Shown: piece by piece, positions 8,387 to 42,843 of the stretch
Numbering within the stretch: position 1 is the stretch's first letter
Layout: each line of letters starts with the position of its first letter
NCBI GenBank assembly: GCA_015063725.1
Contig: SVTP01000016.1
Span: forward strand, 1 to 49,947
Reading direction: 5' to 3'
Source: Oscillospiraceae bacterium
GTDB lineage: Bacteria; Bacillota; Clostridia; Oscillospirales; CAG-272
Length of the DNA: 49,947 bases
Position numbers and translations under genes: made by a program
The notes under the pieces: generated by a model
Databases searched by the model: none
What the model was told of the DNA's origin: nothing
What the model saw: only the letters and a program-made list of their open reading frames with translations

Positions 8387-9106
8387 ATGTTATTTGATAT
8401 TCTCTCCGGCGGTAATATTACCGATATTATCGTTTCCCTTTTGTTCAGTATGCCCATCGTTATGTTGGCGCTCTCCCTGCATGAGACGGCGCACGGATAT
8501 GCGGCATACAAGTGCGGTGACAACACCGCCTACAATCTTGGGCGCTTGACGCTCAATCCCCTAAAGCACATTGACCCGGTTGGTTTTTTGTGTATGTTTG
8601 TGCTTGGCTTCGGTTGGGCAAAGCCCGTGCCGATCAACACGCGCAACTTCCGCAACCCCAAACGAGGCATGGCGATCACCGCTCTGGCAGGTCCCCTTGC
8701 AAACGCTGTTATGGGACTGATCAGCGCACTTCTGTTTGGATTTTTCAGCGCATTGCAGATCTATCTTGCCTACCAAGGCATTTCGCAATTTGCCTTTACC
8801 TGCCTTGACTACACCTGCGAGCTGTTTTGCCTCTCGGCGCTTTACAACTTTCTGTTTATGGCGTTCAACCTGATCCCCGTTCCTCCGTTTGACGGCTCGC
8901 GCATCGCGCTCGCCTTTCTGCCCTCAAAAACCTACTTTGGTTTGATGAAATATGAGCGCCAGATCATGATCGGTCTGCTCATTGCCCTTTTGGTACTCTC
9001 ACGCTTCGGCTTTTCTCCCTTCTCTTGGATTGCAAACAAGCTCACGCTTGGAGTCGCAAATCCCGCTTACAGATTGTTTGGAAAGCTGTTTGGCATTTTC
9101 GCTTGA
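8387..9106 (+). CDS. Site-2-type membrane metalloprotease (peptidase M50 family)
   Basis: An integral membrane zinc protease of the short rhomboid-like S2P type found in Firmicutes. Zinc ligands are in HETAH at residues 32-36 at the end of the first hydrophobic segment, with the third-ligand motif PVPPFDGSR in a later membrane segment. Four to five hydrophobic helices fill most of the 239 residues. The substrate is unknown; related proteins act in regulated intramembrane proteolysis. The Shine-Dalgarno sequence is poor (GAAAGTGAG, far from the ATG), so expression may rely on coupling with engB, 29 bp upstream. It is immediately followed by scpA, a linkage common in Clostridia. Confidence 0.88.
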   Translation: MLFDILSGGNITDIIVSLLFSMPIVMLALSLHETAHGYAAYKCGDNTAYNLGRLTLNPLKHIDPVGFLCMFVLGFGWAKPVPINTRNFRNPKRGMAITALAGPLANAVMGLISALLFGFFSALQIYLAYQGISQFAFTCLDYTCELFCLSALYNFLFMAFNLIPVPPFDGSRIALAFLPSKTYFGLMKYERQIMIGLLIALLVLSRFGFSPFSWIANKLTLGVANPAYRLFGKLFGIFA

Positions 9107-9141: not shown

Positions 9142-10275
9142 ATGGAAGCACTCACTTACCGACTGGATCAGTTTGAAGGTCCTCTTGACCTATTGCTCAT
9201 GCTGATTCAGAAGAACAAAGTGAATATTATCGATATTCCCATCGCGCTCATCTGCGACCAGTACCTGGAATACCTCAAGGCTGCGCAGGATATGGATATG
9301 GAGATCGCGGGTGAATTTATCGTTATGGCAAGTGAATTGATGCTCATCAAGAGCCGCTTGCTCCTCCCCAAGGTAGAGGAAGACGAAAAGGATCCGCGTG
9401 CCGACCTTGCCGAAGCATTGCTCCGCTATCAACAGGCAAAGCAAGCTGTGGCAAAAATGATCCCCCTTTATCAAACCTACAGTGGCCGCATGGTCAAGGA
9501 CACCGACGAAATTACGGTGGATACCTCTTACGTGACCGATCAGGAAGTCACGCAGCTTTGCGCCGCTGTCCGCCGCATCATTGCGGCAAACGAATCCCGC
9601 CCGCGTGCGGAAAGACAAACCTTTGCACCCTTGGTCGCTAAACCCATCATTCCCGTTGACGTAAAGATCGTGGGCATTCTTCACAGAATGTCTCGCAAGA
9701 GAGACACCTCTATGCAAGAGCTTTTGCACGATGCAGTCTCCCTGAATGATATGATCGCCATCTTTTTGGGAATTTTGGAGTTGATCAAGGTCCGCAAGAT
9801 CTTAATTGATGAAGACAATGCCTCCTACACCGTCATTCACGGCGTGGACACGCGCTTTGTGGTAAACGATGCGCCTCCCGTCGAGGGCGAAGAGGAAAAG
9901 GAATATAACCCTGCCGTTCACGGAGACGAGCCGATCCCGCTTTCCTCCAAGGCAGAGATGCACCGCGAGCAAAGACGCATCATTCGCGAGGCAAAGCTTG
10001 CCGAAAAAAAGAGATTGCGCGCCGAAGAACGTGCTCGCCGTGCCGAGGAGCGCCGTCGCGCCAAGGAAGAAGCGATGGGTCAGACCTTGATTGAGGCTGA
10101 CATTCTTCCCGAGGACGACAGCGATCTGGAAGCCGAAGCCAAGATCGCGGAAATGCTTGACAATCAGCTCTCCGAGGATGATGAGGATCTTCTCGACGAT
10201 ATCGGTCTGGATATGAACGAGATCATCACATCGATGGCTAAGCAGGCAAAAAACTTACCCGATGACAGTCAATAA
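9142..10275 (+). CDS. scpA: Segregation and condensation protein A, with long charged C-terminal tail
   Basis: The kleisin subunit of the Smc-ScpA-ScpB condensin, which bridges the Smc heads during chromosome organisation. The N-terminal motif QFEGPLDLLLMLI is diagnostic, and the winged-helix C-terminal kleisin region ends near residue 245 (LIKVRKILIDED). At 377 residues it is about 120 longer than the usual 240-260. The extra part first alternates Arg/Glu/Ala (about 275-315, a predicted single helix) and then becomes strongly acidic (about 320-365). AAAGGATC precedes the ATG at long spacing. The scpB gene follows after 30 bp. Confidence 0.95.
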   Translation: MEALTYRLDQFEGPLDLLLMLIQKNKVNIIDIPIALICDQYLEYLKAAQDMDMEIAGEFIVMASELMLIKSRLLLPKVEEDEKDPRADLAEALLRYQQAKQAVAKMIPLYQTYSGRMVKDTDEITVDTSYVTDQEVTQLCAAVRRIIAANESRPRAERQTFAPLVAKPIIPVDVKIVGILHRMSRKRDTSMQELLHDAVSLNDMIAIFLGILELIKVRKILIDEDNASYTVIHGVDTRFVVNDAPPVEGEEEKEYNPAVHGDEPIPLSSKAEMHREQRRIIREAKLAEKKRLRAEERARRAEERRRAKEEAMGQTLIEADILPEDDSDLEAEAKIAEMLDNQLSEDDEDLLDDIGLDMNEIITSMAKQAKNLPDDSQ

Positions 10276-10305: not shown

Positions 10306-11067
10306 ATGGAACAAAAGAAAGAATCCGCTCCATATCTCGAGCAGCTAACGAGTGAGCAGGACCTCAAGCAAGCAATTGAGGCGATCCTGTACGCCGCAGG
10401 CTACCCGATGCGATATGACAAGCTGGGGGAGCTTTTGGGACTGAGTACAAAGGATATCAAAACGCTGGTGCGATCTATGGCAGATCATTTTGCCCTGGAG
10501 GATACACACCACGGAATTCAGCTCCTGCTCTACCCCACCACCTGTCAGCTCGCTACTAAGGAGCGTTATGCCCCATACATACGAGAAGCTCTTGGCATTC
10601 GCCGCGGCGGAAACCTATCAGCATCTTCTATGGAAGTGCTTGCGGTGGTCGCCTACAATCAACCCGTTACAAGATCCTACATCGATCTTGTGCGCGGTGT
10701 GGATAGCTCCTATGCCGTTAACTCTCTGCTTGATAAGGGGCTTATAGAAGCCGCGGGACGTCTTGATGCTCCCGGCCGTCCAATGCTTTACGTCACCACC
10801 GACAAGTTCTTGCGTGTGTTCGGGCTCAATGCTCTGGATGAGCTCCCCGAAACCGAGGCCTTGAGCGTGGCTGCCGCACAGGCAGAAGGAACCGAGGAAA
10901 ATCAAGGAAACACCGAATCAGAGCAGCTGACTCTTGATGTGGATAATGAGGTTATACCAAGTGACTACACAGAGCCTGTTGACGGTGAAGAGGAAGACGT
11001 TGCGATTGAAGCAAGCGCTGCACCGCCTCCCTCGCCCGACTCCAATGAAAAGGAGGATTTGACTTGA
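10306..11067 (+). CDS. scpB: Segregation and condensation protein B, with acidic tail
   Basis: The kite-type winged-helix dimer that binds the ScpA kleisin in the Smc complex. The core (about 14-185) contains AIEAILYAAGYPM, SMEVLAVVAYNQPVTR and a GLIEAAGRLDAPGRP wing, all typical of ScpB. A Glu/Asp/Pro-rich tail of roughly 65 residues follows, parallel to the extension on ScpA. The stop codon overlaps the TTG start of the next gene, which indicates translational coupling. Confidence 0.95.
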   Translation: MEQKKESAPYLEQLTSEQDLKQAIEAILYAAGYPMRYDKLGELLGLSTKDIKTLVRSMADHFALEDTHHGIQLLLYPTTCQLATKERYAPYIREALGIRRGGNLSASSMEVLAVVAYNQPVTRSYIDLVRGVDSSYAVNSLLDKGLIEAAGRLDAPGRPMLYVTTDKFLRVFGLNALDELPETEALSVAAAQAEGTEENQGNTESEQLTLDVDNEVIPSDYTEPVDGEEEDVAIEASAAPPPSPDSNEKEDLT

Positions 11068-11900
11068 TAGCATTGATTACAATATTAATAATTCTTGGCG
11101 TGATTCTGATCACGGCTGTGTTGCTCTTCTTCCTCGGTAATGCAAGCATTCGCATTATCAGTCAAGATCAGCTACGAGTCCTGATCTCTGTTTGCGGCAT
11201 TCGGTTTACCGTATACCCGAGTAAAAAGGATCAACCGCAAAAGCCGAAGAATCTTGCACGCTGCCGCAACCCCGAAGCCGTCCTAAAACGCGAGCTGAGG
11301 CGTCAGCAACGGGCAGCCGAGAAAGCCGCACGCAAAAAAATACGTGCTGCAAAAAGGGCAGCCAAGCGAGACGAAAAGAAAATCGGTATTCCGAAAAAGT
11401 ATTGCCCTGTTCCCAATTTGAAAGAGAATTTGGAAATGGTTTTGGAGCTTGCGAAAAAGCTTGTACGTAAAACACGCGGAAAGGTCAAGATCCGAATCAA
11501 CGAGTTGCACATTCGTGTGGCAACAAACGATGCCGCACATACTGCCCTGCTCTATGGGGTTGTAATCCAACTTGTTTCCTATTTAATAGGCTACGTTGAA
11601 AGACACTACACAAGCATTGAACGCCACGACGGTGACCTTGCTGTGGAGCCTGATTACACCACATCCGATTGCAGCGCAAGCATTGACCTTGTATTCACTG
11701 CAAAAATCTGGCGCGCTGTCAAAATCATTATTGAAATGGTAGATGCTTATGACCAAGAAAAGAAGCGCACCTACCGCAAAGCAGCTCTGCGTGAACGCGA
11801 GCAGAAAAACAACCCACCTAGATTTGATTTAAAAAATATATTAACACGTATACGAAAGGATCATTCATTATGGAAAACGAATCTTCTATCAAGGAAATAA
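11064..11900 (+). CDS. DUF2953 protein (YtfI-like)
   Basis: A membrane-anchored protein of unknown function, conserved next to ytfJ/gerW in spore formers. It has an N-terminal hydrophobic helix (about 2-24), a very basic Ala/Lys/Arg stretch (about 70-108) and the DUF2953 core TALLYGVVIQLVSYLIG followed by VEPDYTTSDCS (about 150-205). The start is a TTG at 11064 overlapping the scpB stop, with AGGAGG eight bases upstream; no ATG fits. Its 3' end overlaps the start of the GerW gene by 31 bp. The ytfI-ytfJ order is the same as in Bacillus subtilis, as I remember it. Confidence 0.82.
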   Translation: MIALITILIILGVILITAVLLFFLGNASIRIISQDQLRVLISVCGIRFTVYPSKKDQPQKPKNLARCRNPEAVLKRELRRQQRAAEKAARKKIRAAKRAAKRDEKKIGIPKKYCPVPNLKENLEMVLELAKKLVRKTRGKVKIRINELHIRVATNDAAHTALLYGVVIQLVSYLIGYVERHYTSIERHDGDLAVEPDYTTSDCSASIDLVFTAKIWRAVKIIIEMVDAYDQEKKRTYRKAALREREQKNNPPRFDLKNILTRIRKDHSLWKTNLLSRK

Positions 11901-14900
11901 TCCGGAATTCGCTGGAACAGGTACGCACCATTATTGATGCGGATACCATTGTTGGTAAGCAAATTGTTACCTCTAGCGGTATGGTAATTATTCCGATTTC
12001 CAAGCTTTCTATGGGCTTTGCCTCCGGTGGCTTGGACCTGCCCACAAAAACCGAAGAGGGCGGAAAGAAAAACTTTGGCGGTGGCGGCGGAACCGGCGTA
12101 AGCGTAGTTCCCGTTGGCTTTTTGACCATCACCCCCGAGGGCAAGGTGGATATGATCCCCATGACGTCGGAAAAGCTTACCCCCGTAGAGGTTGTTGCAG
12201 ACCTCATCTACAACTCCCCCGACATCATCGGCCGTATTAAGAACGTGTTGATGAACGGTTCTCAGATTTCTGTTGCAAATTCCGATGTGGATGTCGATGT
12301 CGATATTCAACCCGAGCTTGCCGACGAGTATCATGATCAGCTCATCCTCGCAACCGATGGAGACGAGGAAGCTCCTGTTTATGACAGTGATGCTGCAATT
12401 CAAACCGAGCAAATCATGTATGCAGACGAGGGCGAGCGCTATGCCGACACCAAGGTTGGCCGCAAAGAGCTCAAGATGAGCATTAAGGAACAGAAGAAGA
12501 GAGACAAGGAAGCTGCAAAGCTGCAAAAGAAAGCCGACAAGAGTGCTGCAAAGATGGCAAGACTCCAAGCAGAACTCATGGCTCTCAATATGGCTTTGGA
12601 TGCTGCTCAAACTCCCGAGGAGAAGGAGTATATCCAAAATGCTATTACCGAGACCAAGGTCAGTGCTCAACTCGAGGGCGAAAAGCAAGCTGAAATCGCT
12701 GCTCAACAAAAGGCTCTCGCAGCTACTGCTCCCGTTGCCGGATACGCCGCTTACGAGGTTCAATCTCGCAAAGCAAAGCGCAACCGCGCTCTTACTCCCG
12801 AGGAAAGCCAAGAGCAGCTTGAAACCGAAATCAGAGCATTCAACGCTGCTTATAACGGTGCTCCCACCGCAGATGAGAAACAAAGAATTATTGATGTTGA
12901 AAGACAGCATCTGGCTCCCTACTACGCCTCTACCTCTCGCAAGGCTGACAGAGAGATCAATGAATTCAACAGCGCTATGCAGGCTGCAAGAACGCCCGCT
13001 CAAAAGCACGCTGTCATTGAAGCTGAAAAGAAAGCAATGCTTCAGCCCACCACTGCAAGAGTTAAGACTCCCGATCAGATGAAGTTTGAGTCTGACATGA
13101 ACACTCTTGATGCTGCTTGGAAGTCTGCCAAGACCGAGGACGAAAAGAAGACCATTCTCGACGTTCAAAAGCAAACCATCATCAATGCAAAGAAGCAACG
13201 TGCAAAGAGAGACGGCTCTGCCGACAGAGTTGCATATGAGGTTCAGGCATTCAACGCTGCCCTCGCTGCTGCTCGTACTCCCAGAGAAAAGCACGCTATC
13301 ATCCAAGCCGAAAAGAAGGCAATGCTCCAATCCGGACAAACTGCTCCTGTTCTCACCAGAGATCAACAAGAGCTTCAGTCTGAGATGAATACTCTCAACA
13401 CCAGATGGGAAAGCGCAACCACTCCCGCACAACAGAATGCTGTCATCGAGGCTGAGAAAAATGCTATTCTGAAGGCTAAGAAGAAGAAGGTACGCGGAAC
13501 ATACAATCCTGCTGAAGAAAAATACTTAGCAGAGGTTGCTGCTTTCAACGCTGCTTACAATGCTGCTCCTACTCCTCAAGCTAAATATGCTGTTATCAAT
13601 GCTGAAAAGCAGGCAATGGTTGCTTCCAAACAACCTTATGCTGATCCTGCAGACGTAGCTCAGTTCAACACCAAAATGAACGACCTCAACTCTGCTATGA
13701 TGCGCGCAAAAACTCCCGCACAGCAAAAAGAAATCCTCCAACAACAGGCACAAACCGTTGTTGATGCAAAGAAGAAGGGCTTGACCAAGTCCAAGGCTGT
13801 TGCAAATGCGCAAGCCGAGGTTGATGCATTCTATGCCGCTCTCTCGAGAGCAAACACTCCCGAACAGCAACAGGCCGTTGTTATGTCTGAGGCAACTCAA
13901 ATGATCGCCTCCAATGTTACTCCGAAGTCCGTTGAAGTAGCTGAATTTGAAAACAAGATCACCAACCTCAACGATGCCCTTTTGACTGCAAAAACTCCCG
14001 CACAACAAAAGAAGATCGTTCAACAACAGGCGCAAGCTGTTGTAGATGCAAAGAACAGAGGTCTCACTAAGTCCAGATCTGCAGCAACTGCGCAGGCTGA
14101 GGTCGAGGCATTCTATGCTACTCTTAATAGAGCCAACTCGCTTGGACAACAACATGCAGCTGTTATGTCTGAGGCAACACAGATGATCGCCTCCAACACA
14201 ACTCCTAAGTCCGTTGAAGTAAATGCGTTTGAAACCAAGATGAACGACCTCAACACCGCTATGCTGCGTGCAGAAACTCCCGCACAGCAAAAGCAGATCG
14301 TTCAGCAACAGGCTCAAGCTGTTGTAGATGCAAAGAACAAGGGCATTACCAAGTCCAAGGCTGTAGCAAACGCTCAGGCTGAGGTTGATGCATTTAAGGC
14401 TGCTCTCGCAAGAGCAAACAACCTTGAGCAACAACAAGCCGTTGTTGTATCCGAGGCAACACAAATGATCGCTGCCAATGCTCCCAAGTCCGCTGACACG
14501 GCTGCATTCGAAGCGAAGATGGATAAATTCGATGCTGCTATGCAGGCTGCACAAACTCCCGAGCAACAACAAACCATTCTCGAGGGTGCAAAGCAGGCAG
14601 TTATCAAAGAAAAGAGAGCACAAAAGGGCTTGTCCAAGAACTACGATGCTGCTACCAGCCGCGTATATGCTGAGGTTATGAAGTTCAACGCTGCTCTCAA
14701 GGCTGCTCAAACCACCGAAGAAAAGAAGGCTGTTATCGATGCAGAAGCGAACGCAATGCTCAAGCCTCAAAAGACTCCTGCAGATCCCAAGTACACCGAG
14801 TTCGAGTGCGAGATGTCCGATCTCAACTCCGCTTTGGCAAATGCAAAGACCCGCGGCGAGCAAGATCAGCTGCTTGAAGAACAACAACAAGCAATTATCA

Positions 14901-15616
14901 AGGCTAAGAAGCGCGGCTTGACCAAGGCTGAGGCAGAAGAGGAAGAAACCGTTAAGGCTATCGCAGCATTCAACGCTGCCCTCCTCGCAGCAGAAACTGC
15001 AGATCAACAACAAAAGCTGATCGACATCGAAAAGCGTGCTCTCCTGAAGGCTCAAAAGCAAATTCAAGTTAAGAATGCTGAACAAGAAGTATTCGAGGCT
15101 GAAATGTCCGGCTACGATGAAGCTTACGCTGCAGCACAAAGTGATCTTGAAAAGCTCACCATCCTCGAGGCTCAAAAGCAAGCCATCATCAAGGCTAAGA
15201 AGAAGGGCGTAACCAAGGCTCAAAAGGCTGCTAAGGACGGTCAGGGACTTGATGACAAGCAAGTAAGACTGGAAGTTCTGGAAGCTGAATTGGTAGCTCT
15301 CAAGTCGGCTCTTGCACGCGCTGAGTCCGAAATGGAAAAGCGTGCTTTGATCGAGGCTGAAAAGGATGCTCTGATTGAAGTTAAGAAGCAGGTTGCCCTG
15401 AATGAGGGTGAAATCGCTGAGGAAGACCTCACTCAAGTTGAGGAAGCAATTGCTGAACCTGTTGCTGCAAAGACCAAGGCTGAAAAGCGTGCCGAAAGAA
15501 AGGCTAAGAAGCTGGCTAAGAAGCAACAAGCAGTTGAGGAAGAGGATATTCCTGTTCCTCACGGCAAACGCGGTAAGATCTCCGAAAAGACGCTTGATAG
15601 CGGCACAGTAAAATAA
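11870..15616 (+). CDS. GerW/YtfJ-family spore protein fused to a giant Ala/Lys/Gln-rich helical repeat domain
   Basis: Residues about 5-127 are a GerW (YtfJ) domain, with TIVGKQIVTSSGMVIIPISK, the glycine run NFGGGGGTGVSVVPVGFL and a closing amphipathic segment. Bacillus GerW is about 150 residues and is made in the forespore, where it supports germination; this protein is 1248. After an acidic linker (137-185) and a Lys-rich helix comes an array from about 232 to 1180. It holds about 19 units of 44-50 residues that alternate between two types. One reads like AFNAALxAAxTPxEKxAVI and the other like MNxLNxAMxxAKTPAQQ followed by VVDAKKKGLTK. Proline at each TP probably breaks helices. The tail is Lys/Glu-rich. 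AAAGGA precedes the ATG. Function of the array is unknown. Confidence 0.85.
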   Translation: MENESSIKEIIRNSLEQVRTIIDADTIVGKQIVTSSGMVIIPISKLSMGFASGGLDLPTKTEEGGKKNFGGGGGTGVSVVPVGFLTITPEGKVDMIPMTSEKLTPVEVVADLIYNSPDIIGRIKNVLMNGSQISVANSDVDVDVDIQPELADEYHDQLILATDGDEEAPVYDSDAAIQTEQIMYADEGERYADTKVGRKELKMSIKEQKKRDKEAAKLQKKADKSAAKMARLQAELMALNMALDAAQTPEEKEYIQNAITETKVSAQLEGEKQAEIAAQQKALAATAPVAGYAAYEVQSRKAKRNRALTPEESQEQLETEIRAFNAAYNGAPTADEKQRIIDVERQHLAPYYASTSRKADREINEFNSAMQAARTPAQKHAVIEAEKKAMLQPTTARVKTPDQMKFESDMNTLDAAWKSAKTEDEKKTILDVQKQTIINAKKQRAKRDGSADRVAYEVQAFNAALAAARTPREKHAIIQAEKKAMLQSGQTAPVLTRDQQELQSEMNTLNTRWESATTPAQQNAVIEAEKNAILKAKKKKVRGTYNPAEEKYLAEVAAFNAAYNAAPTPQAKYAVINAEKQAMVASKQPYADPADVAQFNTKMNDLNSAMMRAKTPAQQKEILQQQAQTVVDAKKKGLTKSKAVANAQAEVDAFYAALSRANTPEQQQAVVMSEATQMIASNVTPKSVEVAEFENKITNLNDALLTAKTPAQQKKIVQQQAQAVVDAKNRGLTKSRSAATAQAEVEAFYATLNRANSLGQQHAAVMSEATQMIASNTTPKSVEVNAFETKMNDLNTAMLRAETPAQQKQIVQQQAQAVVDAKNKGITKSKAVANAQAEVDAFKAALARANNLEQQQAVVVSEATQMIAANAPKSADTAAFEAKMDKFDAAMQAAQTPEQQQTILEGAKQAVIKEKRAQKGLSKNYDAATSRVYAEVMKFNAALKAAQTTEEKKAVIDAEANAMLKPQKTPADPKYTEFECEMSDLNSALANAKTRGEQDQLLEEQQQAIIKAKKRGLTKAEAEEEETVKAIAAFNAALLAAETADQQQKLIDIEKRALLKAQKQIQVKNAEQEVFEAEMSGYDEAYAAAQSDLEKLTILEAQKQAIIKAKKKGVTKAQKAAKDGQGLDDKQVRLEVLEAELVALKSALARAESEMEKRALIEAEKDALIEVKKQVALNEGEIAEEDLTQVEEAIAEPVAAKTKAEKRAERKAKKLAKKQQAVEEEDIPVPHGKRGKISEKTLDSGTVK
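13658..14500 (+). repeat. Three tandem 282-bp repeats inside the GerW fusion gene
   Basis: Copies start at 13658, 13940 and 14222, exactly 282 bp apart, and code for residues 597-690, 691-784 and 785-877. Each copy holds one unit of each type (94 residues). They remain clearly alike at the DNA level, for example CAAGCTGTTGTAGATGCAAA in copies 2 and 3. Copies outside this stretch are recognisable only as protein. This points to fairly recent in-frame duplication. Confidence 0.85.
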
Positions 15617-15659
15617 TCTGTTAGTCGGTTCTTTATCCGCTAAAAAGACATAAAACACA

Positions 15660-15702
15660 CTCCGGAAAAATATACATTACCAAATGTATTTTTTCCGGAG
15701 GG
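15660..15702 (+). promoter_or_regulatory. Hairpin that buries the Shine-Dalgarno sequence of the dacF-like gene
   Basis: Arms 15660-15676 and 15685-15700 form 16 base pairs with one bulged T at 15671 and an 8-nt loop. The 3' arm contains CCGGAG, the first part of the ribosome-binding site GGAGGG (15697-15702) for the ATG at 15714. No T-run follows, so it is not an ordinary terminator. Likely role: translational control or mRNA end protection (inference). Confidence 0.6.
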
Positions 15703-15713
15703 TGTTATTTATA

Positions 15714-16880
15714 ATGAAAATTCGTAAAATTTTAAGCTTTATTTTGGCGTTTTCCTGCGTTTTTTGCACTTTTTTGCTCCCTGTTTATGCAGACAAAACG
15801 CCTCTCTCCCCCCCTTCCCTCTCAGCGCAGAGCGCACTTTTGATGGAGGCGGACAGCGGCACTGTGGTATGCGAAAAAAATGCGCACACACGTCTTCCCA
15901 TGGCAAGCACGACCAAGATCATGACCGCGCTTGTGGCTTTGGAGCTTGCCACACCTGATACTGTAATTGCGGTAGATGCGCGTGCGGTAGGCACCGAGGG
16001 CTCTTCCGTTTATTTATGCGAGGGGGAAAAGCTCACTCTTGAGGAGCTTTTATACGCCTTGATGTTAGAATCTGCAAACGATGCCGCCGTTGCCATTGCA
16101 ATCGGAATTTCGGGCAGTGTGGAAGCATTTGTGGATGCAATGAACACAAAAGCAACCTCTCTTGGTCTTGTTGATACACACTTTGCAAATCCTCACGGGT
16201 TGGATGCCGAGGCGCACTACACAACCGCATACGAGCTTGCACGCATCGCGCAGGTGGCTCTGCAAAATCCCCTTCTGAGAACCATTGTCTCTACACGAAA
16301 GACCACCATTCCCCATCAGGATACCGACGGCGTGCGCTTGCTTGTCAATCACAACAAAATGCTCCGTCAATACGATGGATGTATTGGGATGAAAACTGGA
16401 TACACACAAAAAAGCGGTCGCTGCTTGGTCTCGGCGGCCGAGCGTGACGGCGTCACTCTGATTGCCGTAACCATTGATTCCCCCGATGATTGGAATGATC
16501 ACGCCAAGCTGTTGGATTACGGTTTTGCCAATTATCGCTCGGTGGAGCTGTGCTCTGCCGACTTTCAACTTTGCTTACCCGTGGTGGGAGGCAAAGAAAC
16601 CTACGCTATCGTAGGCATATTCCAAACCTATTCTGTCACGCTTCCCACAACTGTTGGCGTGATTGAACAAACCGTTGAATGTCCGCGCCATCTTTACGCT
16701 CCCGTCAAGGAGGGCGACGTATGCGGACGAATGCTCTTTTTATGCGACACAAATAATGACGGTATCCAAGAGATCATTGGAGACATTCCTCTTATTGCCC
16801 AACACAAAGTGGAAAAATATGCGCCGCACTTGAATTTGTGGCAACGCTTTTTGCTTTGGTGGCAGCGTTTGTTCTCTTGA
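15714..16880 (+). CDS. dacF: D-alanyl-D-alanine carboxypeptidase (DacF/PBP5-like)
   Basis: A secreted penicillin-binding protein that trims the terminal D-Ala of peptidoglycan stem peptides; DacF-type enzymes act on the spore cortex. A signal peptide covers residues 1-26 (cleavage after VYA). The catalytic tetrad S65-T-T-K68, the SAN motif in LESANDAA and the KTG motif in GMKTGYTQ are all present. Hydrophobic residues near the C-terminus (LNLWQRFLLWWQRLF) look like the amphipathic membrane anchor of this family. An ATG 30 bp further upstream (15684) lies inside the hairpin and lacks a ribosome-binding site, so the start at 15714 is preferred. The gene name is tentative. Confidence 0.9.
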   Translation: MKIRKILSFILAFSCVFCTFLLPVYADKTPLSPPSLSAQSALLMEADSGTVVCEKNAHTRLPMASTTKIMTALVALELATPDTVIAVDARAVGTEGSSVYLCEGEKLTLEELLYALMLESANDAAVAIAIGISGSVEAFVDAMNTKATSLGLVDTHFANPHGLDAEAHYTTAYELARIAQVALQNPLLRTIVSTRKTTIPHQDTDGVRLLVNHNKMLRQYDGCIGMKTGYTQKSGRCLVSAAERDGVTLIAVTIDSPDDWNDHAKLLDYGFANYRSVELCSADFQLCLPVVGGKETYAIVGIFQTYSVTLPTTVGVIEQTVECPRHLYAPVKEGDVCGRMLFLCDTNNDGIQEIIGDIPLIAQHKVEKYAPHLNLWQRFLLWWQRLFS

Positions 16881-17667: not shown

Positions 17668-18057
17668 ATGCTGGAAGTATTACCGATTCAAGATAAAAGT
17701 GAACAAGAACAAATTGCCAACCTTTGCGGCATTCCCTTTCGCACCGAGCTTTTGGCTTACAAGGCTCTGGTAGACGGGGAGTTGCGTGGCATTTGTCAAT
17801 TTACAATGAATGCGGGCGGCGGTTCCATCGTCGATTTTGCACACGCACCTGATGCGTATGAGTTCGAACCAATGTTCGTTATGGGACGCGCCGCACTCAA
17901 TTTTATTGATCTTTGCGGTGTGCATCGCGCTTATTTTGACGCAAAATGCGACAATGAAACGCTTATAAAAGCCATCGGTTTTTCGCGAAATGCCGACGGC
18001 AGATTTGAGATGGATTTGACAGATTTCTTCAAAGAACCCTGCAAACACTCGCATTAA
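17668..18057 (+). CDS. Small conserved-looking protein, possible truncated GNAT-fold domain
   Basis: A 129-residue soluble protein that begins 5 bp after the rluB stop with a ribosome-binding site (GAAAGGA) inside the end of rluB, so it is part of the same operon. It has no signal peptide or membrane helix. The pattern (GELRGICQFTMNAGGGSIVDF, then RAALNFIDLCGV and LIKAIGF) resembles strands and the last helix of a GNAT acetyltransferase, but a clear acetyl-CoA P-loop (Q/RxxGxG/A) is missing. I do not assign a function. A terminator follows. Confidence 0.6.
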   Translation: MLEVLPIQDKSEQEQIANLCGIPFRTELLAYKALVDGELRGICQFTMNAGGGSIVDFAHAPDAYEFEPMFVMGRAALNFIDLCGVHRAYFDAKCDNETLIKAIGFSRNADGRFEMDLTDFFKEPCKHSH

Positions 18058-18209: not shown

Positions 18210-18992
18210 ATGGAATACAAAACGAAACTTTTGATTGCCGATGAAAGCCCTGTTTGGCGTGCGCAGGTGCGCGAGGGCTTGATGCGCGCAGGATACCGCA
18301 ACATTGAGGAAGCGGTAAACGGTGAGGAAGCTGTACTGAAAATGTCGCAGATCCATCCCGAGGTCGTGCTTCTTGACGTTTGGCTTTCCAAGTTGGATGG
18401 CATTGGCGTTCTTCGCAATGCACGTACAATGGATTGGGGCGGTGACAAAGCACCTTCCTTTATTGTGGTATCCTCTGTTTCCAATCAAAGCATCTTTATT
18501 CAGGCATCCGAGGCGGGAGCTGACCTTTGCCTGCTCAAGCCCGTCAATCTTGTCAGTCTTGCCGAGCATATTCAAAGCATTGCGGCACGTCGTGTGCAAG
18601 ACATCCCTGCCGTCGCTCTGCAAGAGACCGAGAAAGGTCCTGATATTGAGTCGCAGGTTACGCAGATCATCCATCAGATCGGTGTTCCTGCTCACATTAA
18701 GGGATACCAATATTTGCGCACGGCGATCCTTTTAACCATTAAGGATTCGGACATTATCAACTCGGTTACCAAAGTCCTCTACCCCAGTGTTGCCAAGAAG
18801 TATGCCACTACGACCAGCCGCGTGGAGCGCGCCATCCGTCATGCCATTGAGGTCGCGTGGGATAGAGGTGACGTAGATACGCTTAACTCCTATTTTGGAT
18901 ATACCATTCAAAACAACCGCGGCAAGCCCACCAACTCCGAATTTATTGCGATGATTGCAGACAATTTGAGACTGAAATACAAATTGAATTGA
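18210..18992 (+). CDS. spo0A: Sporulation master regulator Spo0A
   Basis: The response regulator that commits Firmicutes to sporulation when phosphorylated. Its C-terminal DNA-binding domain is nearly canonical ([32 protein letters not shown]). The receiver domain (1-125) keeps the phospho-acceptor Asp56 and Lys110. It has D11-E12 where most Spo0A proteins show two Asp, and SVSN in place of the usual LTA-type switch segment. The 260 residues are near the usual length. GGAGG lies 12 bases before the chosen ATG; another ATG at 18202 is out of frame. The spoIVB gene that usually precedes spo0A is not adjacent here. Confidence 0.95.
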
Positions 18993-27867: not shown

Positions 27868-29574
27868 TTAACCAAGCTCGGGATTGAGCAAAGCATCAAT
27901 GGTCTCGAACATGGATTCTTCGATGTGAAAGATGCTGGAAGTGATATCTGTATATTCAGACGATTCTCTGTTGGGAATCTGATACAGCTTTTCTTCAAGA
28001 TTGCCCCAAGAAGGATACAGAAGAGCCAAATCGTAAACCAACGAGGTTCTGATGATATCCATAACAGGACGGGAACCGTTGTCAGCAGCAGCTTGGAGGT
28101 AAACGGTTCTGTCATAGTATGCGTGCATGGTAGAATCCGGCAGGCTGGAGTAAACGGTCAAAGCCTGCATCAAGCGCTCGGAATACTCAGCATTTTCACC
28201 TGCAATATTGGGAATAGCCCAAAGGTGTGCCCAGTTGTAGAAGTAAACAACGCTACGGTAATCCATTCCCTCTTCGTAAACGGGAATCGGGAGAATACCG
28301 TATTCGAACTCTGCTCTGGGGTAGATCTCACTTCTTACGTTGAAGAGCGAGCAGTCTGCAAAGAGAACGTCACCGGTGAGGAAGTTTTTGTTGAGGATGT
28401 TAGAGGATTCGTGAGGGATCCAAGGAGTATTGACCTTACGGTTGAACTTATCAAAGATGTAGTCGTAAAGAGTCTGTCCCAAGTTTTCCTGAATAACAAA
28501 TTCAGGCAGACCTTCGTCGTTCTTTTGGGTAATACGTCCACCGGAACCGTAGAAATACCACAGTGCGGAATAGAGATACTGGTGATAGCCAACAACATCG
28601 CCACCAACATACTTATTGGTAACCTCTTTTCCATCTACAACGCCATCAGGCAGAACGTGAAGTTCGCCACCATCCTGACCGGCATCAACGTTTGCAAGCT
28701 CTGCAATCGTCAAAAGAGTATTCATCGTCCACTTTTTAGCGGTAACGATATTGTAGATGTTGCTGTAAGAAATATCGCCCTCAAATACCTCGACGATTTC
28801 TTCTGCGAGGTCATTGTAGAATTCCATATTGACAATGGAAAGACCTGCAACGTCCATGGTGGAGATGTTCATATCACCGCTGGTGAAATACAGCTTATCG
28901 CCAACACGAAGCTCGTTGATTGCATTCTGGTCAAACGACTCATGGCTCAAATCCAGGTTTTCCATATCGTAAAGATTGCGCAGCAGGTTTTGAGTTGCCG
29001 CCTGTGCTGCAGGCTTTGCGGTAATGATGGTCAGGTCGTAGCCTTCACCGTTGATAAAGGCGGAGAGCAGATGCTCGATTTGGCTACCATCGGAGGAAAC
29101 CTGTCTGATCTTGCAGTTGTAATCTGCTTCGATCTGTTTGTTTCTTTGGTAAACAGCGAAGGAAATAACATCGTTTTCACTGTTTGCTTCATCAACCCAG
29201 AAGTCAACGCAACGGTAGTCGTTATTACCGTTTGCAATTTGTGCAGCATGCGCAGTAGGGCTGGTGCCTGCTTGGTCGCGAACATATGCACGGTAAACAT
29301 ATCCGTCCATATCAACAACCTCAGGCAAAATAATGTTTTCTTCCGGTGGTGTAGTGGTGGTATCACCGTTACCTTCGTTTCCTTCGTTACCGCCGTTGCC
29401 ACTGTTGCCATTGTTGCCACTGTTGTCATTGGAAGGATTGTTTTGTTGACCATTATTGTCAGTTGGTGCAGGAGTTTTGTGTCCCCCGCCCTTGTTGTTG
29501 TTACAAGCTGCAATGCAAGGAATGATCATGCACAGAGCCAACAACAAAATGAGGATTCTCGTAATACGTTTCAT
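27868..29574 (-). CDS. Extracellular solute-binding lipoprotein, copy 1 (last gene of the unit)
   Basis: A 568-residue lipoprotein: signal peptide with lipobox IAAC and lipidated Cys24, then a disordered Gly/Asn/Pro/Thr linker to about residue 80, then a large two-lobed family-1-type solute-binding fold. It shares with its two neighbours a run of matching blocks, such as the D(M/L)NISTMD(V/T) region, a KWT(M/I) segment, YFYGSGGR and VVYFYNW-AHLWAIPN. Ligand unknown; long family-1 binding proteins of this kind in Clostridia usually bind oligosaccharides or other sugars. It lies 23 bp after copy 2. No ABC permease or ATPase gene is in the window. Confidence 0.8.
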   Translation of the reverse strand: MKRITRILILLLALCMIIPCIAACNNNKGGGHKTPAPTDNNGQQNNPSNDNSGNNGNSGNGGNEGNEGNGDTTTTPPEENIILPEVVDMDGYVYRAYVRDQAGTSPTAHAAQIANGNNDYRCVDFWVDEANSENDVISFAVYQRNKQIEADYNCKIRQVSSDGSQIEHLLSAFINGEGYDLTIITAKPAAQAATQNLLRNLYDMENLDLSHESFDQNAINELRVGDKLYFTSGDMNISTMDVAGLSIVNMEFYNDLAEEIVEVFEGDISYSNIYNIVTAKKWTMNTLLTIAELANVDAGQDGGELHVLPDGVVDGKEVTNKYVGGDVVGYHQYLYSALWYFYGSGGRITQKNDEGLPEFVIQENLGQTLYDYIFDKFNRKVNTPWIPHESSNILNKNFLTGDVLFADCSLFNVRSEIYPRAEFEYGILPIPVYEEGMDYRSVVYFYNWAHLWAIPNIAGENAEYSERLMQALTVYSSLPDSTMHAYYDRTVYLQAAADNGSRPVMDIIRTSLVYDLALLYPSWGNLEEKLYQIPNRESSEYTDITSSIFHIEESMFETIDALLNPELG

Positions 29575-29597: not shown

Positions 29598-31271
29598 TTA
29601 GGATACAAAAGTGGGATTCTTGAGTTTTTCTACCGTTTCTTGCAGGTTGCGGTTGATTTCACTTTGAGAGGATACGTTACCAGCGTAGACACCGGCAGAG
29701 CTGATTGTCAGCTCACCGAGGGTAACAGTACCCATCTTGTACCAGTCATAAAGCAGTGCGATATCATAAACCATCGAATCTTTAATGGTATTCATAGCCT
29801 TACGGGAACCTTCATCGGATGCGGTGTTGAGGTACAAGGTTCTCTCATAGTATGCATACATGGTGGAATCCTGGAGGTCAACGTTGGAGTACGCTGCAAA
29901 GATGTTCATCATCTGCTGTGCTATTTCAGAGTTGTTTACCTTATTGGGAATAGCCCACAGATGGTTGCAGTTGGTAAAATAAACTACGCTATGGTAATCT
30001 GCTCCCTCCTCGTAAGTGGGGTTCGGCAGAATACCGTATTGGAAGGGACTTGCGTTGTAAAGCTGTGTTCTGATATCGAACAATGTCATTTCGGTGAAAA
30101 GGCAACGACCGGAAGAGAAAATATCCCATCTGGGGCCGGAATAGCCGTGAGGCAACCAAGCCGCGTTGTCACCGGTTCTTGTGTTGAACTTAGAGAAAAG
30201 GTAGTCAAACAAATCGTTATGCTTTTCAATAACGAGCTGCGGATTGCCTTCATCATCGATCTCGGTCAGGCGTCCGCCCGAGCCATAGAAGTAGTAAACA
30301 CCCATGCCGGTGTAGGCAAAGTAGCCCAGAACGTCACCGTCTTGAGAACCAAGTGCAAAGCCGTCGGAATCGTTAACGTCGACATTGATCGTATTTGCCA
30401 TTGTGAGCATCGTATCGATCGTCCACTTTTTGCTCAAGACAAGATTGTAGATATCAGCATACATGGGATCGTTGCCAAACAGTTCTACAAAGGTCTCAAT
30501 GTAGTTGTTATACATTTCGAGGTTAACAACGGTAGGTCCGCAAACCTCCATTGTAGAAACGTTCATATCACCGCTGAGGTAATAGAGGCAATCGCCAAGA
30601 GCCAACTCCTTGAGGGATTTTTTATCGTAAGAGGGATGCGAAAAATCAAGGCTCGACATCATGTTGAGGTTACTCAACAGATTTTGCGTTGCTGCATTTG
30701 CAGCTGAGCGTGCCATAATAACGGTCAGGTCAACGCCATCATCATTCATATAGTACAGTTTGAGCTGAGAGGTCATGTCGCCCTTTTGCTCAAGCTGCTT
30801 GATGCGACAGTTGTAGGTCTCTTCGATTTGAGAGTTTCTCAAATAAACTGCGTAAGTAATTGCGTCATTGTTGCTTGTTGCCTCGTCTACCCAAAAGTCA
30901 ATGCAAGCATATCCATTGTTACCAATGACAAGCTGCAGATCTTCGGGGGCGGTATGGTCACCGGTACGGACAAGCGCTTCGTATACATAAGGATCACCGT
31001 CTTTACCGAAATCGGCCGGGGGCGGCAGAGGGATATCGGGGGTTTCCTCTCCTCCGGCGTCAGGTGTTGTAACATCACCATCGCCATCGTTGCCGCTATT
31101 ACCACTGTTGCCACCGTTTCCACCGTTGCCACCGTTGCCACCGTTTTCGGTGCTTTCGGGATCGGTGGGAACAGGCTTGTAGTTGTCTTTTTTATTATCA
31201 CAAGCAAGCATGCAGGTAAGCAAACAAACAAGCGCCAAAACCAACGCGATAACTCGTGCTATTTGCTTCAT
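29598..31271 (-). CDS. Extracellular solute-binding lipoprotein, copy 2
   Basis: A 557-residue paralogue of the flanking genes. The signal peptide ends in the lipobox MLAC (Cys24), followed by a Gly/Asn repeat linker encoded by imperfect 9-bp repeats (about 31085-31145) and the binding domain with SGDMNVSTMEV, KKWTIDTML, YYFYGSGGRLTE and VVYFTNCNHLWAIPN. AAGGAG precedes the ATG. It is separated from copy 3 by 139 bp containing a strong RNA stem, and from copy 1 by only 23 bp. The ligand is unknown, and sequence divergence from the neighbours suggests different specificity (inference). Confidence 0.8.
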   Translation of the reverse strand: MKQIARVIALVLALVCLLTCMLACDNKKDNYKPVPTDPESTENGGNGGNGGNGGNSGNSGNDGDGDVTTPDAGGEETPDIPLPPPADFGKDGDPYVYEALVRTGDHTAPEDLQLVIGNNGYACIDFWVDEATSNNDAITYAVYLRNSQIEETYNCRIKQLEQKGDMTSQLKLYYMNDDGVDLTVIMARSAANAATQNLLSNLNMMSSLDFSHPSYDKKSLKELALGDCLYYLSGDMNVSTMEVCGPTVVNLEMYNNYIETFVELFGNDPMYADIYNLVLSKKWTIDTMLTMANTINVDVNDSDGFALGSQDGDVLGYFAYTGMGVYYFYGSGGRLTEIDDEGNPQLVIEKHNDLFDYLFSKFNTRTGDNAAWLPHGYSGPRWDIFSSGRCLFTEMTLFDIRTQLYNASPFQYGILPNPTYEEGADYHSVVYFTNCNHLWAIPNKVNNSEIAQQMMNIFAAYSNVDLQDSTMYAYYERTLYLNTASDEGSRKAMNTIKDSMVYDIALLYDWYKMGTVTLGELTISSAGVYAGNVSSQSEINRNLQETVEKLKNPTFVS

Positions 31272-39570: not shown

Positions 39571-42500
39571 ATGGGAAAAGGAAAAAGAAACAAGCAGCTC
39601 CGTCTGAATGAAACAGAGGGAGCACCCCAAAAACGTGAAAACAAAACAAAAAAACAATTCGTTATGCCCGTTTGGGCAAAACGCGCACTTTGCATCGTTC
39701 TGCTCGTAGCCGTTCTGGCAGGCATTATTGCTGCTGCCCTGATCAGCGGCGGTGCTATTTTGCGTAACCGCATTCTTGTTGAAAGTAAAACCGGCAAGTT
39801 TGATGTCAACCAACAAATGGCTACGTTCATTCTTTGGTTCACAATGTATCAACAAGCAGCCAACGAATGGCAAGACGCTTACATGCAATATCAGTACCAA
39901 CAACTGTTTGGCGGCGGCAGTTCCACAAACAGCAGCATTTTGAACTATTCTCAAGAGTACTACAGTCTCTCCAACGCTGCATACTACACCAAGCAGATCC
40001 TCAACACCGGTCTGCACAGCATCAAGGATTACCTGATCGAGTTGGTTGCAGGCGCAGATGCTGCGATTGAAGCCGGCATGAAGTTTGAAGCACACGACAA
40101 GCAAGATGCTAAAGACGTAGTCACTTGGATGAAAAATCTTTATGTAGGTTTTGGTCTTGCCGAAGAAGACAACGCAAATAGAATGACCTTTGATTACTTC
40201 TTGACCGAGTATGTTGGCGAAGATTTCAAGGCATCTGATATTGAAGATGCTGCAAAGGTTATGATCATGTACTCCAAGTACAGTGATTATATGAATTTCA
40301 CCTTCCAGAATGAGGCTACACAGACCGATCTGCAGAACTATATCGACAAGAACCCTGCCGGCTTCTTCCAGACCAAGTACTACACCTTTACCGGTGCAGA
40401 AGAGTCTATGATCCGCGAGTTCTACTCCGATAAGTTTATAGAGGAGCGTTTTGAGAGCACCGTTGCAAAGCACTTTGCAACCGTTGACCGTCTTACCCTT
40501 GTTGATCTCGAGGGCAATGCGCTGACTGCAAAGATCGCAGAACTCGGTCTCAACACCACCACCAAGTACACCAAGACCACCGACGCAGACGGTAAAGTTA
40601 CCTACTCCCCTAACCTGCCTGATGCACTGGGTGAGTATATCTTCGGTGCTTCTAATAAGGCAGGCACGTTTGCCTCTGTTACCGGCGAAAAATGCGCTTA
40701 CTTGGTTTACTTTGAAAAAACCTCTACCGCTACCGAAGCCACTGTTTCCTTCAAGGAATACAAATATGAGGATTACAAGGACAACCTTTCCGAGATTGAA
40801 AACCTTAAGGATCTGATTGCAGAATGCATCAAGGGCGGCAAGAACACCACCGACTCTATGACCGCAAAAGAGAAAGCAGATGACCTGCTCGCTAAAATGC
40901 AGGATGATCTGCCTCTCGGTATCCCCGAGGATCAAATCATTGCCGCAGATACAACAAAGGACCTTAAAGAAGACGATGCCAACACTGTTCCCGAGGAAAT
41001 TCTTGACAGACTTTACGACGAGGATACAACTGTTTACAAGGGTTGGAAGTTTATTGCTAACAACTCCACCACCTACTACGTTGTAAAGGTGGATGAAGTC
41101 CTCAAAGACGAAAACGATAAACCTACCACCAACTACAAAATCCTTTACGTTGCACTCACCGATGATCTGTTTGCAAGCGTTTTGGATACCTTTGAGGCAG
41201 AATACAACCTGTATCTGCTTGAAACCAAGGTTGAAGCTCCCTCCTATAAGCAAGAGTTCAAGCCCTTTGCAGAAAAGGTTGTTAACTGGTTGATGAAGGA
41301 AAACTTCAAAGAACTCGTACTGACCAGATATGCAAATGCAGAGCTCAAGGATCTGCTTGCTGCAAAGTCTGATACCGACAAGCAAAAGCTGACCGATGCA
41401 TTGAACACTCTGTTCACAAACGGCATTCAAGACTTTACCAAGGGTTATAATACCAAGAAAGAATTTGAAACCAAGTATGACAGCGCTGTTTACGATTATA
41501 TCTTCAACTCCAAAAACAAGGATAGCGCAACCGTAATCGTTGGTGAGGACGATCGCGTATTCCTCGTTTACGTTGCTCCCGTTACCGAAGAGGAAGAAGG
41601 CCACGAAGGTCACGACCATAGCAAGATCGTTCACGCTGCTATCAAAGAATATAACTTTGCTGACTACGAGGCAAGCTTGAAGATAGGCGAAGGAGAGGAT
41701 GCTAAAACCTTTGCAGAGCAAATCGTTGCTGACCTGCTTGCCGAAGGCAGAAAGAACACCACCTCGTTTAAGGCTGCTGAAGAGCTTGCAAAGGCAGAAT
41801 TTGATGACCTGAAGAAGACCGAAAATGCAAAAACTTGGGAAGACTTTGAAACCCAAATTGCCATCAAGCCCAAGGATGGCGTAACTTCCCCCGTTCCCGA
41901 TGCCATCATCAACAAGATCTTCCCCGCCGGCAGCAAGGCAGAGAAGATCGAGCTTACTGCAGACACCTACTACCAAGTAGATAGCAACGGAACCTCCTAT
42001 GTATTCAAATTGACTGAAATCAATAGCAAGCTTCTCTCCTGCACGGTTGAGTATAAGGAATTCAAGGACGATGAATACTACAGCTATTTCCGCGCTATTA
42101 AGAGCAAGTTGGATGGTTCCTTGAAGGAAGAGGCAACTACTCTGAAGTATCCTCAATCCATCACCACCGGCTCTTACCAGGATTGGCTCTTCAAGGGCGA
42201 ATACAAAGACGGTCCTCGTACCTTCGACCGTCAAAAGGGTGATATGACCTTTATTGCTACCACCGACAGCAAGAGCAACATTACAAGCTTGACAATCTAT
42301 ATCGTTGAAGAACCCGCAAAGCAGGTTAACGACGAGAATGAGACTATTTACGCTATTTACCAATTGTACGAAACTGAAAAGGAAGCGAAAAAGGCTCTCA
42401 AGAAGCTGGGCGGCAAGACCGGATTTGCTCTGCTTGATCTCTTCTCCTCCCTCAAGATCACCAAAACGATGAAAGAGGGCAACGAAGAAGGCTACTACCC

Positions 42501-42843
42501 CGGATACGTTGTTACCTCCAATCCTCAAGTAGGCGTGGACTTTACAAAATCCGACATTACGGACGAAAATCTGAAAAATTGGTTGTTTGACGACGCACGT
42601 CAAGCATTCGATATGCAGATCATTGAATCCAAGGACGGCAAGGGCTACTATCTGGCTCTCTACGCATCCGGTGAACAAGCTTGGACCCGCAATGCAAGAA
42701 CTGCTTGGACCAGCGAAAAGTTTGCTGCACACATGAAGGATGTCATCGCTAATGGCGGCTACGAATTCAACGAAGATGCTATGAGCAAGATTGAAGGTGT
42801 TCTCACCACAACCACTGCTCCTGCTACAACTACAAAACCTTAA
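39571..42843 (+). CDS. Large membrane-anchored repeat protein, possibly a divergent SurA/PrsA-type foldase
   Basis: A 1090-residue protein with a basic cytoplasmic head, one membrane helix (about 38-62) and a large extracytoplasmic part. Residues 75-180 (FDVNQQMATFILWFTMYQ) resemble the helical SurA_N chaperone domain. At least five degenerate modules follow, each with a hydrophobic-IF motif, a Gly or Ser turn, a YYVV-type strand and a KEY/DYK motif. Examples are ALGEYIFGASNKAGTF, VYDYIFNSKNKDSATV, AIINKIFPAGSKAEKI and NWLFDDARQAFDM. They read like parvulin halves without the full active site. A His/Glu cluster (about 672-682: EEEEGHEGHDH) could bind metal. The C-terminus is Thr-rich. AAAGGAAC precedes the ATG. 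Function is inferred only from layout. Confidence 0.6.
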   Translation: MGKGKRNKQLRLNETEGAPQKRENKTKKQFVMPVWAKRALCIVLLVAVLAGIIAAALISGGAILRNRILVESKTGKFDVNQQMATFILWFTMYQQAANEWQDAYMQYQYQQLFGGGSSTNSSILNYSQEYYSLSNAAYYTKQILNTGLHSIKDYLIELVAGADAAIEAGMKFEAHDKQDAKDVVTWMKNLYVGFGLAEEDNANRMTFDYFLTEYVGEDFKASDIEDAAKVMIMYSKYSDYMNFTFQNEATQTDLQNYIDKNPAGFFQTKYYTFTGAEESMIREFYSDKFIEERFESTVAKHFATVDRLTLVDLEGNALTAKIAELGLNTTTKYTKTTDADGKVTYSPNLPDALGEYIFGASNKAGTFASVTGEKCAYLVYFEKTSTATEATVSFKEYKYEDYKDNLSEIENLKDLIAECIKGGKNTTDSMTAKEKADDLLAKMQDDLPLGIPEDQIIAADTTKDLKEDDANTVPEEILDRLYDEDTTVYKGWKFIANNSTTYYVVKVDEVLKDENDKPTTNYKILYVALTDDLFASVLDTFEAEYNLYLLETKVEAPSYKQEFKPFAEKVVNWLMKENFKELVLTRYANAELKDLLAAKSDTDKQKLTDALNTLFTNGIQDFTKGYNTKKEFETKYDSAVYDYIFNSKNKDSATVIVGEDDRVFLVYVAPVTEEEEGHEGHDHSKIVHAAIKEYNFADYEASLKIGEGEDAKTFAEQIVADLLAEGRKNTTSFKAAEELAKAEFDDLKKTENAKTWEDFETQIAIKPKDGVTSPVPDAIINKIFPAGSKAEKIELTADTYYQVDSNGTSYVFKLTEINSKLLSCTVEYKEFKDDEYYSYFRAIKSKLDGSLKEEATTLKYPQSITTGSYQDWLFKGEYKDGPRTFDRQKGDMTFIATTDSKSNITSLTIYIVEEPAKQVNDENETIYAIYQLYETEKEAKKALKKLGGKTGFALLDLFSSLKITKTMKEGNEEGYYPGYVVTSNPQVGVDFTKSDITDENLKNWLFDDARQAFDMQIIESKDGKGYYLALYASGEQAWTRNARTAWTSEKFAAHMKDVIANGGYEFNEDAMSKIEGVLTTTTAPATTTKP

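Follow-up and report, generated by a model that had tools for sequence, protein, structure and literature searches.

A clade-restricted helical repeat insert in the gerW gene of an Oscillospiraceae bacterium

The stretch of DNA analysed here, called the window below, covers 49,947 nucleotides of a single contig from an Oscillospiraceae bacterium (genome G000). Family matches place lon, ysxC, scpA (below cut-off), scpB and the DUF2953 gene ytfI, in that order, ahead of gerW. Downstream of gerW follow D-Ala-D-Ala carboxypeptidases (below cut-off), a pseudouridine synthase and spo0A. This gene order supports the claim of an earlier note, made from the sequence by itself, that the locus is the standard one. 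Two ORFs at 8387-9106 and 17668-18057 were without an NCBIfam match. The features that concern us are as follows.

11064..11900, plus strand: ytfI (DUF2953; PF11167), overlapping the start of gerW by 31 bp
11855..11860, plus strand: AAAGGA, probable ribosome-binding site of gerW, 9 nt 5' of the ATG, assigned by reading the sequence
11870-15616, plus strand: gerW ORF, 1248 aa, without internal stop
11870..12262, plus strand: GerW/YtfJ domain, residues 1-131 (PF09579, TIGR02874), 92% identical in G009, another species of the genus
12263..12457, plus strand: acidic linker, residues 132-196, net charge -17
12458..12544, plus strand: Lys-rich stretch preceding the array, residues 197-225, named for its composition (residues 197-232 carry net +9)
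12545..15385, plus strand: array of 19 alternating A/B units, predicted helical hairpins, residues 226-1172 (unit HMM, pair alignment, AlphaFold)
13706..14481, plus strand: youngest part of the array, a 282-bp (A+B) block in 2.8 copies with 78% matches (Tandem Repeats Finder)
15548..15613, plus strand: conserved C-terminal peptide, residues 1227-1248, IPVPHGKRGKISEKTLDSGTVK, the same or nearly so in four array-free relatives and in the G009 tail contig
15684..16880, plus strand: dacF-like D-Ala-D-Ala carboxypeptidase (NCBIfam matches, all below curated cut-offs)
18210..18992, plus strand: spo0A (TIGR02875 above cut-off; PF08769)

Some further observations concern the window at large. ScpA (9142-10275) has 377 aa against models of about 240-250, and its charged C-terminal extension is kept in G009, with 91.5% identity over 377 codons. 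Two adjacent lipoprotein-like ORFs at 27868-29574 and 29598-31271 (minus strand; 568 and 557 aa) have similar starts. Neither these nor the ORF at 39571-42843 (plus strand, 1090 aa) had a Pfam match at E 1e-4. A sigma-70 promoter scan returned 6 sites against 6.1 expected. Opposite the gerW array, the minus strand has open frames at 11861-13432 (523 aa) and 13526-15658 (710 aa), which are probably a by-product of array codon usage.

The gerW protein matches PF09579 (Spore_YtfJ) at residues 33-113 with 61.6 bits against a gathering cut-off of 25, and TIGR02874 at residues 6-128 with 86.6 bits, below the equivalog cut-off of 116.3. The domain thus occupies only about the first tenth of the 1248 residues, as the earlier note had stated. 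Within the taxonomic family of the host, TIGR02874 matches 270 of the 295 genomes sampled, and only 7 reach its cut-off (288 of 295 are below). Therefore, our assignment to gerW relies on PF09579 membership and orthology by locus, not on the equivalog model. The window genome has a single PF09579 match. Of 35 genomes in the genus, 30 contain SpoIVA and 32 contain Spo0A_C, and G000 and G009 are positive for both. With one domain match in the genome, the expected locus and sporulation genes present, the 1248-aa product is the gerW/ytfJ orthologue of the window genome, confirming the assignment made before. Separately, the MAG SIG705 (G025) has gerW on two contigs (loci L068 and L070) and two Spo0A_C matches, reflecting either a mixed bin or a duplicated locus.

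According to the accessible excerpts of the sources cited here, YtfJ/GerW is widespread in spore formers and present in spores, and its role is undetermined (PMC4366231, PMC11760639). YtfJ is among the proteins common to the spores compared (PMC11760639), and ytfJ is in a core sporulation list under sigma F (PMC3416734). In Bacillus, expression is forespore-specific and dependent on sigma F, and the protein is found in the soluble fraction (PMC4366231). As told in the same excerpts, an earlier report linked GerW to L-alanine germination, but loss of gerW was without effect in B. subtilis and B. megaterium (PMC4366231). These deletions contradict the germination role that the earlier note had taken as known. 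GerW is still given as an inner-membrane germination protein, by orthology, in the part of PMC8745062 at hand, an entry that stands against the deletion and soluble-fraction data of PMC4366231.

Between the GerW domain and the array lie the acidic linker and the Lys-rich stretch; judged by eye, stretches resembling the latter also occur in short GerW relatives. With an HMM of a single unit, 19 units are recognised at residues 226-1172, all with i-Evalues of at most 1.3e-13, matching the earlier count of about 19, and two further unit fragments score below zero bits. When residues 246-1180 are compared with themselves, identity is highest (21.4%) at a lag of 94 residues, equal to two units; the maximum over 500 shuffles at lags 30-199 was 13.3%. 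Pair alignment confirms that there are two unit types and that they strictly alternate. Type A has the consensus EIxAFNAALxAAxTPxQKxAVIxAEKxAM and type B the consensus FExxMNxLDxAxxxAKTPxQQKxILExQKQAIIKAKK. Anchor-to-anchor spacing is 42-52 residues, a slightly wider range than the 44-50 proposed at first; the exceptions are unit 1, which is followed by a spacing of 85, and unit 18, followed by one of 62. Residues 191-1248 are 19.6% Ala, 11.5% Lys and 9.3% Gln. The array had been described as almost free of Cys and Trp, and residues 233-1180 (948 aa) indeed contain 1 Cys and 2 Trp. The same residues have a net charge of +4, which speaks against histone-like DNA binding by the array.

At E <= 0.001, 56 of 60 genomes (own included) match the gerW protein. 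Besides G000, only G009 matches within residues 260-1180, and another genome, G032, matches residues 1-253 and 1190-1248, i.e. both protein ends. G009 is a MAG from water-buffalo caecum. Its gerW frame (record JAFYRH010000301.1, locus L053) stays open over 772 aa, as far as the contig runs, with 11 units of which the final one is cut. A second G009 contig, C12, which was read by eye with a supporting profile match, begins inside a B-type unit; behind it come a further unit, the C-terminal peptide with a stop codon, and dacF. Both contigs together give G009 a minimum of 13 units, of which two are cut. In both G000 and G009 the gerW stop is about 3.04 kb before the Spo0A_C match. No stop codon was seen between the GerW domain and the array, the position at which the earlier note would have looked for one: G009 reads through, and array-free relatives have a shorter gene.

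A search of related genomes, suggested in that note, found the array (profile A1) in two genomes, G000 and G009, out of 35 in the genus. The same profile matched 1 of 196 genomes in the family, 1 of 391 in the class and 1 of 398 in the phylum, each time G000; these three samples overlap, and the family sample is without G009. There was no match outside gerW in G000 or G009, and none in viral contigs, plasmids or phages. Whether the extension occurs only inside gerW had been posed as a question, and in the genomes sampled it does. Among 77 named GerW loci, 76 span 125-265 aa, and the remaining one is that of G009. The longest GerW open frames among the matches listed have 290 aa (family) and 226 aa (class), but these matches all score above the window protein, leaving room for other giants among low-scoring GerW proteins. 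In the samples searched, the array is restricted to one small clade.

Structure prediction of two and of four units, also suggested at the outset, gave helical hairpins. For four units, AlphaFold2 placed eight helices, each 17-20 residues long, and within the units a turn of 3 residues (pLDDT 80.7, pTM 0.64), using a shallow alignment of 10 rows (7 window, 3 G009) made up mostly of paralogous units. For two units it placed four helices (pLDDT 86.6, pTM 0.50). Each unit of about 47 residues is predicted well as two helices with a hydrophobic stripe, the hairpins being chained; packing between hairpins, and hence the stiffness of the whole array, is predicted with uncertainty. Helices in alpha-solenoids stack at about 1 nm each, and 38 helices stacked in this way would span roughly 40 nm. 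We analysed columns in 13 A and 12 B units, omitting window units 1 and 19, G009 units 1 and 2, the cut one and the C12 units. Counted from the turn, columns -14, -10, -7, -4, -3, 0, +9, +10, +17 and +18 are hydrophobic in both types. Outside this stripe most columns vary, and some polar ones are conserved. In type A these are E (-11, +13) and N (-6), in type B Q (+15) and K (+21).

We looked for kin of the array by structure and by profile. Foldseek gave no match at E <= 0.001, the best being 0.24 (PDB, four units), 1.3 (PDB, two units) and 0.38 (viral). The weak PDB matches were mostly receptors, several of them named as BRIL fusions, plus some designed helical repeats. Against Pfam the best E was 0.015, in one of 12 rows and with no consistent family; NCBIfam gave no match, and the array profile reached at best E 0.44 against the PDB. 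A single-sequence PDB match to a flagellar hook-associated protein (E 0.0014) was not recovered by profile. A resemblance of the array to cytochrome b562 and albumin-binding GA modules was considered, and profile searches of the PDB and Pfam gave no support for either. In PHROGs, one family of unknown function matched with E 0.00052, no stretch passing alone, and another with 0.014; we treated both as compositional. By these comparisons the array appears to be a helical-hairpin repeat without relatives detected in the databases searched.

To gauge constraint, we compared the window and G009 by the Nei-Gojobori method with our own script. The GerW head (131 codons) has a dN/dS of 0.128. In the array, dN/dS is 0.234 with a dS of 1.26 for window residues 197-590 (391 codons), and 0.288 with a dS of 1.11 for the last part of the array region (136 codons). 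Nine neighbouring genes show dN/dS of 0.028-0.203 and dS of 0.71-1.52, and the array dS is within that range. Copies within the youngest block have a mutual dN/dS of 0.19-0.32. The array is under purifying selection and is less constrained than any of the nine neighbours. A separate observation is that dS in the gerW head (11870-12262) is unusually low, 0.28-0.30 against the neighbours' 0.71-1.52; codon constraint, an RNA element and recombination are candidate causes.

A tree of GerW heads was built from 78 rows (77 named loci and the window) and 137 columns, and many of its forks are unresolved. The window and G009 are paired at 100/98 within a seven-row clade at 98/94. Six of the seven rows have the C-terminal peptide, the state of G009 being set by hand from its tail contig, and the member without it is L059. 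The peptide needs two changes on the tree, which may be a gain plus a loss or else a pair of gains, and its absence from L059 makes it dispensable at least once. The four array-free members that have it, of 229, 235, 248 and 265 aa, end in GKISEKTL or near. As these relatives close with the peptide too, the array is flanked by a conserved end on either side. The earlier idea of a giant added domain therefore stands as far as an in-frame helical tandem repeat goes, but the repeat is an insert between conserved ends and not a plain C-terminal addition. A pattern for the peptide, with GAY (Asp) at a Glu (GAR) codon and one mismatch, gave 62 matches across 35 genomes; six of these matches were gerW ends, and the reversed control gave 35.

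The simplest account of these sequences would have the peptide first, the array inserted once and block duplications later. When 10 G009 units were compared with those of the window, 5 best matched the unit at the same position, 4 a unit at another position, and 1 was misregistered by its hand anchor. This suggests an older shared part of the array and later, separate turnover in the two species. We also scanned 34 array-free GerW tails (residues from 126 on, proteins longer than 150 aa, G009 omitted) for an ancestral unit and found none; the unit HMM gave at best 2.9 bits, against 8.8 for the best of 50 shuffles each.

We propose that a tandem helical-hairpin array expanded behind the GerW domain and ahead of a conserved C-terminal peptide that is older than the array; in the simplest case this happened in the ancestor shared by the window species and G009. 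Strung together, the hairpins would form an extended spacer or scaffold, close to neutral in charge, by which the spacing of both conserved ends is set within the forespore or spore core; its length may change via gain or loss of 282-bp (A+B) blocks. We infer the function of the array, as we do its extended shape, its part as spacer or scaffold and its forespore location. A helical spacer or scaffold in the forespore that acts by its length is the most likely role, and we give it an even chance. In its favor count the same fusion in two species, purifying selection, the kept hydrophobic stripe, the peptide in four array-free relatives, the helical hairpin models, the net charge of +4 and the 282-bp block in 2.8 copies. 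Against it count the pTM drop to 0.50 for two units, several conserved polar columns, which could mean binding, and the absence of the peptide from L059. More tentatively, a new helical-hairpin repeat family may have been born in one small clade of gut Clostridia and serve as a ruler or tether, with GerW held at a set distance from the peptide's binder. Inside the forespore, the GerW protein would then act as a rod tens of nanometres long whose length can be adjusted.

The conserved polar columns, which occur within each type, raise the possibility that the units are repeated binding modules and GerW a multivalent scaffold collecting one or two partners, its length a by-product. The strict alternation of two unit types, offering A-type and B-type sites, and purifying selection on the array would agree with this. 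However, the conserved columns are mostly on the hydrophobic stripe, most others vary, and no known binding repeat matched in Pfam, NCBIfam or PDB; we consider such modules possible but doubtful. Rather unlikely is a near-neutral repeat expansion in an insertion-tolerant tail, folded and soluble but without selected function. Some 950 codons remain an open frame under constraint in both species at a dS near 1, although low dN/dS may also reflect selection for folding alone. The array dN/dS of 0.23-0.29 does exceed the neighbours' 0.03-0.20, the tails of array-free GerW proteins differ widely in length (125-265 aa in 76 complete named genes), and for Bacilli and Paenibacillus variable regions in YtfJ have been published, as far as the accessible part of PMC9425974 goes.

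It is improbable that the protein is a Gln/Ala/Lys-rich amino-acid reserve of the spore, degraded at germination like gamma-type SASP. Its composition at residues 191-1248, rich in these residues and nearly without Cys and Trp, would fit, but no SASP family matched, and neither strict alternation nor a conserved hydrophobic stripe is necessary for a reserve. The pattern TE[FI]A, taken here for the germination-protease site, has 0 occurrences in the window and G009 proteins. An assembly or gene-calling artefact, with two genes joined or a repeat stretched, is very improbable: both genomes are incomplete, MAG-like assemblies (80% for G000, 69% for G009) and the G009 contig break falls inside the array, but separate assemblies of different species show both junctions in frame, the youngest repeat copies are only 78% alike and array dN/dS is well below 1. 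The fusion of GerW and array is not an artefact, a concern that the earlier note had raised.

Taken together, our results indicate that the helical repeat insert in a true gerW gene, seen in two uncultured relatives from the gut, is real and clade-restricted. Our searches of open-licence papers showed none on a repeat-bearing GerW. A natural GerW with both conserved ends far apart suggests that both ends matter, and the array, the ends and the array length offer a handle for finding GerW contacts. In addition, the gene is a recent example of how a long folded repeat array came about inside a single bacterial genus, and array-free sister lineages are available for comparison.

Like alpha-solenoids, designed helical repeats and four-helix bundles such as cytochrome b562, the array is predicted to consist of serial antiparallel helix pairs, but kinship to general helical-hairpin repeats is not supported by the Foldseek or PDB profile matches. 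YtfJ of Bacilli and Paenibacillus, entered with a variable region and tail (PMC9425974, Table 2), shares lineage-specific variability with the window protein; unlike for the latter, the accessible part of that source states no array, repeat unit or length. With YtfJ/GerW sporulation proteins such as B. subtilis YtfJ, the window protein has in common the domain, the protein start, the locus and a single gerW in the genome. It differs in its 1248 aa against the usual 150 or so, and in adding a 19-unit array and a C-terminal peptide that is found in only part of the genus.
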